Shown here: one piece after another, positions 40,680 to 43,600 of the stretch | How positions within the stretch are numbered: position 1 is the stretch's first letter | Layout of the letters: each line of letters starts with the position of its first letter | Assembly (NCBI GenBank): GCA_963966185.1 | Contig: CAWZYM010000242.1 | Span: 290,001-354,000, forward strand | DNA: 64,000 nucleotides | From: Rhabditoides inermis | Taxonomy: Eukaryota; Nematoda; Chromadorea; Rhabditida; Rhabditidae | Direction: 5' to 3' | The notes under the pieces: model-generated | What the model was told of the DNA's origin: nothing | The model's input: the letters and a program-made list of their open reading frames with translations, nothing else | The model's database searches: none | Translations under genes and position numbers: made by a program

Positions 40680-43600
40680 ATGGGCGACCGTGTGGAGTCT
40701 CCTCTCATCCACATGATTCCCTACGAAGTGATGCGAGACGTGTGTGACATTCTTGACGCCGGCGACGTCTGGGAAGAAATCGGTGAGTTTGCAAATATGA
40801 TTGTATTTATTTTATTTTATTTCTTTCAAGCTGGTCACATGCCGGATATCACGAACATCGATGTGGACGGATGCAAGAAGTACCGCATGTTCGGCAGCCC
40901 CTCGTGGTTTCTTCTGCGTCTCTGGGCCAGCAAGGTCGGTATTATTGTCACCTCGCGTTTCATTTTTTTTGCATAAAGGGCTACTCTATTTACGACCTGT
41001 ACACGTTGTTTGCGATCACGCGGATGATGAGATGTATGGCGCTGATCAGACATTTGGGTGAGTGCGTAGTCCGGTATGAGGGGTGATAGCAGGCAGTTGC
41101 AGTGGACGAGGATCACCACCACCTCGAAGTGGACGCGGCCGGACACAACTCGCCCGCCGTCTGCAAGACCGCCACCACCAGCATGATGAAGGTGGGCATG
41201 TTGTCTAGCATACCTCTAAGTGTGGTGTGCAGAGTGCGACGAACCACACGTGGCGCAGCCGCGCGGTGTCTGGCGGGGAGGCGAGTGTGTCGTCCCGTGC
41301 CGCCCGTCCTCCCTCCTCCCACCCCCAACCACCACAGCCCGCACACTCGGCCAGCATAGCCAGCACCAGCCAAGCGTCAGTCTCATACTCTCCCCCATAT
41401 TCCCATTGCATACGTGTGCACCTCGCAGATCGTCTTCCGCCGACTCGGCCATCTTCTCAGGCCTGCAGAACACGCCGTCGGTGTTGTACTCGGAATTGGA
41501 GGTGGCTATATACTCTCGCGTGCATACAATCTGAAAACGTGTTCAGACTGCGACGAACAACTTCTCCGCCTCGCACATAGTGGGAAAGGGTGGGTACGGA
41601 GTTGTGTACCGGGGAGAGTGGAAGCACACTCCGGTCGCCGTCAAGAGGCTACACGCCAACAGCGACAGGAACAACCAAGTGAGTGCTTGGTTTGTTGTTT
41701 GTTGTTTGTTGTTTGTTGTTTGTTGTTTGTTGTTTGTTGTTTGTTGTTTGTTGTTTGTTTGTTTACAATCTTCACTCTAACTTTCTCATTATAGGTTTCT
41801 ACTCTTTTTCCAGATTTTACTTTGTTCGCTACTTTCCTTTCGTCCGCTGTGGCCCTGCACTGATGAGCGTTCAGGCAGTAGGCCCACCACAGTGGATGTT
41901 CTTATTTCGATTCTATCATTTAGTCAGTAACTCTAGATATAGTACTTTGATGTAGCCTGTCTGCAGGATAATGGGCCGAAACAGGGATTCTGTTTCTTAT
42001 TTATTTATTTGTGAACTACTTTATCTGCTTTGTCAATTCCTCATTGTTTGTAGTTGGTTAGCACATGACTGTGATCTCTCGCGTGTACTACGCAGAGAGG
42101 CGCGTCTTGTCTCTTTCCAGCTTTCACTCTTACTTATATTATCTTTGTCTCTTACTATTTAATTTATTCCGTTACATTTACTTCTTCTAACTGTTTCACA
42201 TTTTATTCTATACGTTATACTTTCCTGCCCTGCCTTTTATAGGCACGTCTGACCTTTTTTGTTGTATAAATCAATATTGTATATGTATTCTACTACCAGT
42301 TATTCTGTCAGTATTACTTCATTTTCTCTCTCACCGTTTACGGCGAGACTTGCACCGTGCCGACTCCGTTCTCCCTAAGTGCACCTGGGAGAACGCGGCA
42401 TGCCTTCCTAAGTGCACCTGGAAGGATTGTGCGGAGCTGCTCACCGTGACCGGCCGGGTACCCTGGCCAGTCGCACAGAACAGCTCACCCCACTCTAGTC
42501 TCATAAATGCACCTTGAGACAGTGAGTGGGTTTACTTATTCTTCATTTTATCTTTCTTTCTCTCTACGAGAAAGTTAGTTTTTCATTCATATTTTTCTTT
42601 GATTCATTTCATTGCAATTTACCCGCAATATTAGAATCTTTCTTATTTCCTTCCCATACCTGTACTTTTTTGGATCTGTTAGTGTTTGGTAGCAGGAGTC
42701 ACACATCTATACACATTTCTTTCTTTCTTTTACTCTATTTGTTTTACTCTCTGGAGGGCTCATGTGGTCCGGGCCCATGACATGTTATTCTTATTTAACT
42801 ACTGAGGTTGTCATGCAACCACCTTCGATTGCGCTTTGATAATTCAGGAAACAGAGATATCCGAGTTATCATCTAGGCCTGTCGTCGTACATAGGCGCCT
42901 ATTTAGGCATCCCGCCTCAAGGGTCTCTGAAACCTTTCACTCCTGCCAAATCCCAATCAAACACACAAACCAAGCATTTAATCACCAAATTCTCTACTAC
43001 CAGTGACTCCATACTAGTAAAACGTCAAAAGAAAAACGTTCTGCTAGTATCTAATTCTACAACTCATACTAGTGTACACTGTCCAAACACTAAATGTCTT
43101 ATCTGTCCTCAGGTTGATCATTCTAATAAAATATATTGCTACGCTACTAACTGCCATGTTACGACTTTGAAAACTCCGAACTGTGACTGTAATACTGCTA
43201 ATGTTATCTACTGTATTACTTGTGATCTTTGTGGTGTTCAATATGTTGGCCTGTCCTCTCGCAAGTTTTTGCAACGTATGCGTGAACATAAGAGTGCTAT
43301 TAACAATAAGTATTCTAACACTCCTCTTTATAAACATTTTGCTCAAAATGGCCACTCTTGGTCGTTTGCCAAACTCTCTATTTTGGAGGTAGTGGATGTG
43401 AATAGTGACAAACGTATGAATAATGTTAAATTGGAAGAGCGTGAAGAATTCTGGATTCGAACACTTGTTACAGCATATCCTGTGGGTCTGAATGACTCTA
43501 TCAGAGGATATGAAACCATCACTCGCTCTCATATTCGTCCTTTTGATAAGGCATCTCATCCTTACTTCAATTTCCGCCCGAAGACTCGCCGGCGTCCCAA

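Follow-up and report, generated by a model that had tools for sequence, protein, structure and literature searches.

PMC11167929 describes only one Penelope-like reverse transcriptase as purified and active. For the anole Penelope-like element PAc, synthesis starts 111–118 nt into the ORF (+111 to +118), and RNA up to +172, which is 54–61 nt 3′ of the start, is required; the hammerhead of this element cuts at +26, 85–92 nt before the start, and is dispensable for insertion in vitro (PMC11167929). Type-CSG hammerheads were reported by Eckert et al. (2023, PMC10085705) on the basis of two similar sequences with cleavage activity in vitro; the block rule given there places stem II at most one or two nucleotides from CUGAnGA.

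The window analysed here (the whole stretch of 64,000 nucleotides from Rhabditoides inermis) contains a Penelope-like element that we assign to family A, and it was compared with further families of the same genome, each designated by a letter. Family A resembles PAc, in which the required RNA lies near the junction of pseudo-LTR (pLTR) and ORF, 3′ of the start, and the hammerhead lies upstream of the start; the distance between hammerhead and start is 85–92 nt in PAc and 87 nt in family A. Unlike the Naiads, PAc has a C-terminal endonuclease, a hammerhead of ordinary topology and an ORF that begins inside the hammerhead. Repeated shared-loop hairpins, as present in family A, are not described for PAc in the main text of PMC11167929, and the family A module is far larger than the RNA required in PAc and lies ~280 nt from the insertion end, as opposed to 54–61 nt.

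Type-CSG hammerheads (PMC10085705) share with the blocks in our Naiad pLTRs the C-S-G order, the three stems, a short linker between stems I and II and a helix joining their other sides. The two sequences of that report can be set against the pLTRs of eight retroelement families here, although the 12–17 nt between CUGAUGA and stem II in families A, B and C are excluded by its definition. In canonical Penelope-like elements, minimal type I hammerheads likewise have their core in the pLTR, but they follow the ordinary nested order with a minimal or missing stem III, whereas the Naiad blocks have a non-circular order and a stem III of 5–12 bp (PMC7761336).

A Naiad-type element and its structured leader

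Direct repeats of 300 nt at 41747–42046 and 45788–46087, which are 100% identical, delimit the element in the window.

41747..46089, forward strand: whole family A copy with 5′ pLTR, leader, ORF and 3′ pLTR (from direct repeats and copy alignments)
41747..42048, forward strand: 5′ pLTR, its last base corresponding to the 3′ insertion end at 46089 (from repeats and copy alignments)
42843..45779, forward strand: ORF of 978 aa from stop to stop, with GIY-YIG in the N-terminal and reverse transcriptase in the C-terminal part

The 3′ ends of other copies with a 3′ pLTR fell at 46088–46092, with one at 46104. This end equals position 42048, the last base of the 5′ pLTR, where reverse transcription presumably starts. 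Within the ORF, GIY-YIG was detected at 121–207 and RVT_1 at 751–839. GIY-YIG ahead of the reverse transcriptase in one ORF is what we take to be the Naiad domain order, and by this order the element is classed as a Naiad-type (N-terminal endonuclease) Penelope-like element; besides the N-terminal GIY-YIG and reverse transcriptase in one ORF, pseudo-LTRs and tandem copies were found. A linker CxC motif and a telomerase-like IFD were reportedly listed among the Naiad marks by Craig et al. in 2021. A search of public proteins with the whole ORF protein gave six matches, which came without DNA context, and no solved structure of a relative was found. As the first-pass annotation of this DNA had remarked, the ORF has no clear ATG: none precedes the conserved N-terminus in family A.

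In the 172.6-Mb genome, the leader matched 33 rows at 93–100% identity, representing 32 copies since one interrupted copy gives two. Four family A copies stand in tandem at G000:C52:70691-86282 with a spacing of 5,110 bp, and in the interrupted copy L018 (G000:C472:35121-43462) the base of hairpin 3 is broken by ~8 kb. TTG/TTTG repeats adjoin the window copy (41720–41770), a setting that agrees with the microsatellite bias of Naiad insertion. The SL1 spliced leader had 368 exact matches in the genome, which marks the host as a nematode.

Between pLTR and ORF, a 206-nt stretch of the leader (42329–42534) is a real RNA module of this Penelope-like element, composed as follows.

42329..42348, forward strand: hairpin TCTCACCGTTTACGGCGAGA, kept in family B (fold)
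42351..42433, forward strand: three-way junction with hairpins 1 and 2, outer stem 42351–42355/42429–42433 (minimum-energy fold)
42356–42362/42396–42402, forward strand: junction arm bearing hairpin 1 (minimum-energy fold)
42367..42395, forward strand: hairpin 1, CGTTCTCCC-TAAGTGCACCT-GGGAGAACG, loop TAAGTGCACCT at 42376–42386
42403..42425, forward strand: hairpin 2, CCTTCC-TAAGTGCACCT-GGAAGG, loop TAAGTGCACCT at 42409–42419
42434..42486, forward strand: central long hairpin without the shared loop (minimum-energy fold)
42498–42520, forward strand: hairpin 3, GTCTCA-TAAATGCACCT-TGAGAC, loop TAAATGCACCT at 42504–42514
42489..42530, forward strand: hairpin 3 with its outer stem 42489–42495/42524–42530 (minimum-energy fold)

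Sequence and fold both bear out the three hairpins with perfect stems and the loop TAARTGCACCT that the first-pass annotation had pointed out, and their placement in the leader of a Penelope-like element is borne out by the GIY-YIG/RVT_1 ORF, the pLTRs and the related families that keep this arrangement. TAARTGCACCT occurred at three exact sites in the 64 kb, all of them in the module hairpins, and at five sites when up to one mismatch was allowed. Since hairpins with at least six pairs around an 11-nt loop occupy only 0.3% of window positions, three such hairpins sharing one loop do not arise by chance. The stretch folded at −98.7 kcal/mol, compared with −66.9 on average for 200 shuffles, none of which did as well (z −6.91), and a second independent shuffle run gave z −6.7; its flanks reached z −2.7 (42046–42328) and −2.1 (42540–42740). 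The module is absent from the pLTR and begins ~280 nt 3′ of the presumed synthesis start of family A. An Rfam search of 40500–47500 in the window returned two matches, with E values of 0.78 and 1.5, both far under the gathering score. Inside the outer stem of hairpin 3, CA/GTGAGT at 42520–42527 resembles a splice site.

Comparison with other copies, named in the first-pass annotation as the check on these pairings, upheld the nested fold: in 14 distinct family A copies (L018 and rows identical in the region being left out) 99.4% of 938 pair cells were kept, versus 34–47% with the partners slid. Six further pair types were seen, all single-sided, and none of the 67 pairs was changed on both sides. 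Inside family A, the shared loop is no better kept than the stems: according to the list of invariant columns, 7 of 33 loop columns and 13 of 134 paired columns varied, mostly by changes in a single copy, and one or more copies whose frame is open have two changed loops. The diverged copies L013, L014, L015 and L017 had 11–14 substitutions per 100 nt in 42239–42338 and 3–6 in 42339–42538, and the most diverged copy, L016, had 8 and 6, respectively; in the first hammerhead bin (41839–41938) the diverged copies had 0–2 substitutions. The pseudoknot TGTGCG/CGCACA that had been suggested alongside the hairpins fared differently and was rejected: it competes with the nested fold, the three pairs (of six) that vary do so by losing the pairing and never by a compensatory change, and 88.1% of its cells were paired in the 14 copies, versus 99.4% for the nested fold.

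Hairpin arrays in related families

A protein search of the genome scored 47 of 655 candidates and further searches scored 49 of 631, 51 of 647 and 40 of 188, so that the numbers of families and copies given here are lower bounds. The leaders at C272, C11, C363, C123 and others stayed outside the comparison, as did family D (L039), which is masked with N, and L032 (C217, 70% protein identity), whose leader showed no similarity, was dropped. Arrays were found in six of the eight families with leaders read, that of H being just a pair; the G and I leaders examined, neither of which showed a pLTR, revealed none. The order GIY-YIG then reverse transcriptase was also found in families C and F, and in E only GIY-YIG passed.

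Family B (L031, L033, L034 and L035; 65–70% protein identity to A) keeps the first hairpin of the module and adds four hairpins with the 12-nt loop TAAGTGATACCT, the last one showing TAAGTGATAACT, on the stems GCGCTCTCA, CCTTCC, TCTTCG and CCTCTCCCA; a deletion in L033 breaks one hairpin stem. The leaders of two B copies folded with z −7.5 and −5.6. Family C (46%; L036 and L037) has three hairpins with the apical motif CCCTCTnGGT(A)TGTCC(A)GAG on differing stems, together with UUCG hairpins (fold z −4.95). In family F (32% to C), TATTT loops sit on GTGTCTC/GAGGCAC and GTATCCA/TGGATAC and a TATTTT loop on TTAGCCC/GGGCTAA, the hairpins being part of a duplicated 83-nt block whose two copies are 82% identical. 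Family E (34% to C) carries 11.5 tandem copies of a 44-nt unit with 96% matches (L040, reverse strand, ~785–1310); each unit consists of a hairpin and a UUCG hairpin, and the fold of a single unit is moderately above shuffles (z −1.89). In family H the array consists of a pair of TTAT hairpins, CGTCCC/GGGACG and AGTCCC/GGGACT, whose outermost base pair differs in a compensatory manner (C-G versus A-U). No Rfam match with E up to 1 was obtained in L031, L034, L036, L037, L042, L044, L046, L048 and L052. The E array may represent a young form of the diverged arrays of A, B and C, and such arrays may be renewed by tandem duplication, with the 11.5 units of E, the duplicated block of F and the diverged units of A, B, C and H as possible examples.

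The case for covariation comes from the joint set of A and B hairpins and not from the young family A alone. This set comprised ten hairpins (the three of the window, three variants from other A copies and four of B), and its nine-pair stem had a covariation score of 0.748; shuffles averaged 0.283, none of 500 scoring as high, and slid partners gave at most 0.406. Eight of the nine pairs were changed on both sides, a number that 49 of 500 partner shuffles reached, and the count of pair types was reached by 244 of 500. The covariation within one molecule claimed in the first-pass annotation thus stands as a comparison of paralogous hairpins, but not inside family A, where both-side changes are lacking. 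The case for the shared loop rests on its repetition within one RNA and on the A/B comparison. Outside A and B, the hairpin model found no good match in 19 sources (102,637 bases; best E 0.16).

A strict same-loop test demanded two hairpins with loops differing by at most one base and clearly different stems. The leaders of A, B, E and F passed it, as did one shuffle out of 320. The groups contained two hairpins each in A, B and F, and the E pair lies outside its array. In A, the test unites just two of the three hairpins because hairpins 1 and 2 differ at two of six apical pairs. No group was found by this test in C, G, H and I, the interrupted stems of C being invisible to it.

Hammerhead blocks in CSG order

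The pLTRs of the window copy contain the blocks of a hammerhead in an unusual arrangement.

41845..41985, forward strand: hammerhead blocks in CSG order in the 5′ pLTR, predicted cut 41961/41962
41845–41852/41887–41894, forward strand: bridge
41854–41859/41962–41967, forward strand: stem I, followed by CUGAUGA at 41860–41866
41867–41880, forward strand: 14-nt insert, followed by stem II at 41881–41886/41972–41977
41956–41960/41981–41985, forward strand: stem III, with GAAA at 41978–41981
45886..46026, forward strand: the same blocks in the 3′ pLTR copy, predicted cut 46002/46003

In the A, B and C pLTRs, CUGAUGA and GAAAC have a GUC site between them. The three stems form only in the order CUGAnGA (C), cleavage site (S) and GAAA (G), and with the blocks in this order all stems cross. 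Further families were recognised by a descriptor (E, F and H) or by eye (G and I), which placed hammerhead blocks in the terminal repeats of eight families (A, B, C, E, F, G, H and I). Besides the window, CSG-ordered blocks were recorded in L034, L036, L042, L043, L044, L046, L048, L049 and L052.

With stems I, II and III taken at five pairs each and one copy per family, 118 of 120 cells were paired and 11 of 15 pairs showed changes on both sides. Shuffled partners gave 86.2 paired cells on average and 97 at most, none of 2000 reaching the observed value, although this control is flattered by registers that were chosen for best pairing and a blind descriptor is fairer. In 55 records (266,516 bases), the blind descriptor made 47 hits, all in CSG order and none in the five other orders; these hits are not independent, being mostly A copies with the window locus counted twice. 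In 40 shuffled sets it made nine hits, one of them CSG. The descriptor misses F, G and I. For the B row, L031, whose stem III strand differs by a base, was not used, and a MAFFT alignment of the eight hammerheads, which misplaced E, was left out of the counts.

CUGAnGA, GAAA and a non-G base at the cleavage site were present in all eight families, this base being C in seven and A in E. Family G has one mismatch in stem I and family I an A-A at the first position of stem II. The gap between CUGAUGA and stem II is 14 nt in the window, 17 in B and 12 in C, and 0–2 nt in E, F, G, H and I. E, F and H fit the published sequence criteria for type CSG, as does G apart from its stem I mismatch, whereas the window copy is hammerhead-like and falls outside this type because its 14-nt insert breaks the rule of one or two nucleotides. 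A flanking helix, with pairing assigned by eye, encloses the C block in A (CGCUGUGG/CCACAGUG), B (CACUGCGG/CCGCAGUG), C (GCACCGUGG/CCACGGUGC) and F (CUCAUGC/GCAUGAG), and it resembles the bridge of type-CSG hammerheads described in PMC10085705. On the strength of their sequence, the pLTR blocks represent a CSG-ordered hammerhead motif and a candidate ribozyme. The nested fold of the pLTR core showed no excess stability (z −0.4), which is expected for a pseudoknotted design and lends it no support either. A complete hammerhead was absent from the examined stretches of the G and I leaders, F′ (L053 and L054), E40/E41 and H50.

From the predicted cut to the 3′ insertion end the distance was 87 nt in A, 66–71 nt in 21 rows of F (40 of 188 candidates scored), 73 nt in H (one pLTR pair) and 115 nt in E. 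No row of the F copies had its 5′ start at the predicted cut. In the E copy L041 (reverse strand, ~259), a T run adjoins the 5′ end, which is ~5 nt away from the predicted cut; this end was possibly templated by cleaved RNA and possibly reflects chance, and it was not counted as evidence.

Candidate roles of the leader arrays

We tentatively propose, with a confidence that stops somewhat short of even, that the leader holds a multivalent module recognised by a protein, most probably the reverse transcriptase of the element itself. Several hairpins would present one family-specific loop or apical motif, while the stems would be free to change as long as they pair; the element's GIY-YIG/telomerase-like-RT protein would bind the repeated loops and thereby select its own RNA. 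The bound RNA may then be held while synthesis starts upstream, at the pLTR end (42048), and the CSG-ordered hammerhead in the pLTR, upstream of this start, would cut tandem transcripts. One loop repeated on free stems is the layout expected of a multivalent protein site, and loops that differ among families in one host genome argue for a family-specific reader. Under this proposal, 3′ pLTRs would stop ahead of the module because the hairpin region is not copied into the 3′ end. The 3′ ends of F insertions lie before the module (40 of 188 candidates scored): among the 24 copies with an end or a start within the query, 21 stop at L042:666–671 and two earlier, at 629, and one of 40 rows starts inside it. 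In retroviral packaging signals, several stems in the region from LTR to gag carry GACG loops. The A leader, in which a single loop recurs on different stems downstream of the terminal repeat and ahead of the ORF, is comparable in how it might work, but loop, size and polymerase differ, and we do not count it as a member of that class. The anole precedent, in which the required RNA lies 3′ of the start, points to this place as one of protein binding, and the Naiad arrays sit there. The ~280-nt distance from the start in A, the loop changes among copies and the G and I leaders without an array would speak against recognition.

The main rival is translation control, in which the structured leader would serve as an IRES-like or non-AUG initiation element for an ORF without a normal start codon. 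It stays a live rival because an ATG upstream of the conserved N-terminus is lacking in A, B, G and I (four of eight families), and the stretch adjoining the ORF, 42754–42935, shows conservation from A to B along with indels that disrupt the frame. Even so, we consider it unlikely: an in-frame M does occur upstream in C, E, F and H, the arrays are several hundred nucleotides away from the conserved ORF start and are wholly different among families, and 42754–42935 folds no better than shuffles (z −0.7 in A, 0.2 and 0.0 in two B copies). Splicing, for which a 3′ splice-like CTACTACCAG/TGACTCC at ~43000 is a candidate, could also supply a start. Two related ideas were discarded, namely 42754–42935 as a second structured domain, which is conserved between A and B yet without excess fold stability, and the AUG in the loop of hairpin 3 as start codon, at which place family B has TAAGTGATAACT.

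Recognition by a host protein acting in nuclear export, localisation or stability, with the site multiplied for avidity, would also explain one loop on several stems, this being the usual layout of repeated protein sites, and would put the site outside the coding logic of the element. We regard it as quite improbable, since the loops differ within one host genome (TAAGTGCACCT, TAAGTGATACCT, TATTT and others), which fits co-change with the family's protein better, and the A/B loop model had no match outside A and B in 19 sources. Loop-loop kissing or RNA dimerisation via GTGCAC, raised in the first-pass annotation, has in its favour that GTGCAC is indeed palindromic in two of the three window loops, but hairpin 3 has ATGCAC, F has TATTT and all four B hairpins, with GTGATACC or GTGATAAC in the homologous loop TAAGTGATACCT, lack the palindrome; as a conserved function it was rejected, and we hold it to be highly improbable. 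That the hairpins are chance structures or a functionless by-product of tandem duplication is hardly credible given the fold (z −6.9), the compensatory differences between hairpins and the strict same-loop pairs (1 of 320 shuffles versus the real A, B, E and F leaders), even though the 11.5 near-identical tandem units of E indicate that units do arise by duplication.

Returning to recognition by the element's own protein, the observations may be combined into a two-part RNA device, a suggestion that we hold tentatively and that could well prove wrong: the CSG hammerhead would trim tandem transcripts and the shared-loop array, downstream of the synthesis start, would act as a password private to each family between RNA and reverse transcriptase, with stems that drift and arrays that are renewed by tandem duplication. 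To our knowledge, no shared-loop hairpin module of this kind has been described in leaders of Penelope-like elements, and the 2021 abstract of Craig et al. is said to state that Naiads lack canonical hammerheads. A thin literature search yielded nothing on Naiad hammerheads or shared-loop hairpins in such leaders; both are likely to be novel, as far as this thin check goes.

If true, the CSG order would be the form of hammerhead native to a clade of retroelements reportedly devoid of canonical ones. The arrays bear on how a Penelope-like reverse transcriptase picks its RNA and starts inside it, and since several natural families in one genome repeat a candidate recognition site, loop-swap tests would be simple. 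CSG-ordered hammerheads are hereby placed in recently copied retroelements (F copies are 99–100% identical, with 40 of 188 candidates scored), which would provide many natural variants of this topology, and the families with an insert beside the catalytic core may serve as a gauge of what the core tolerates.
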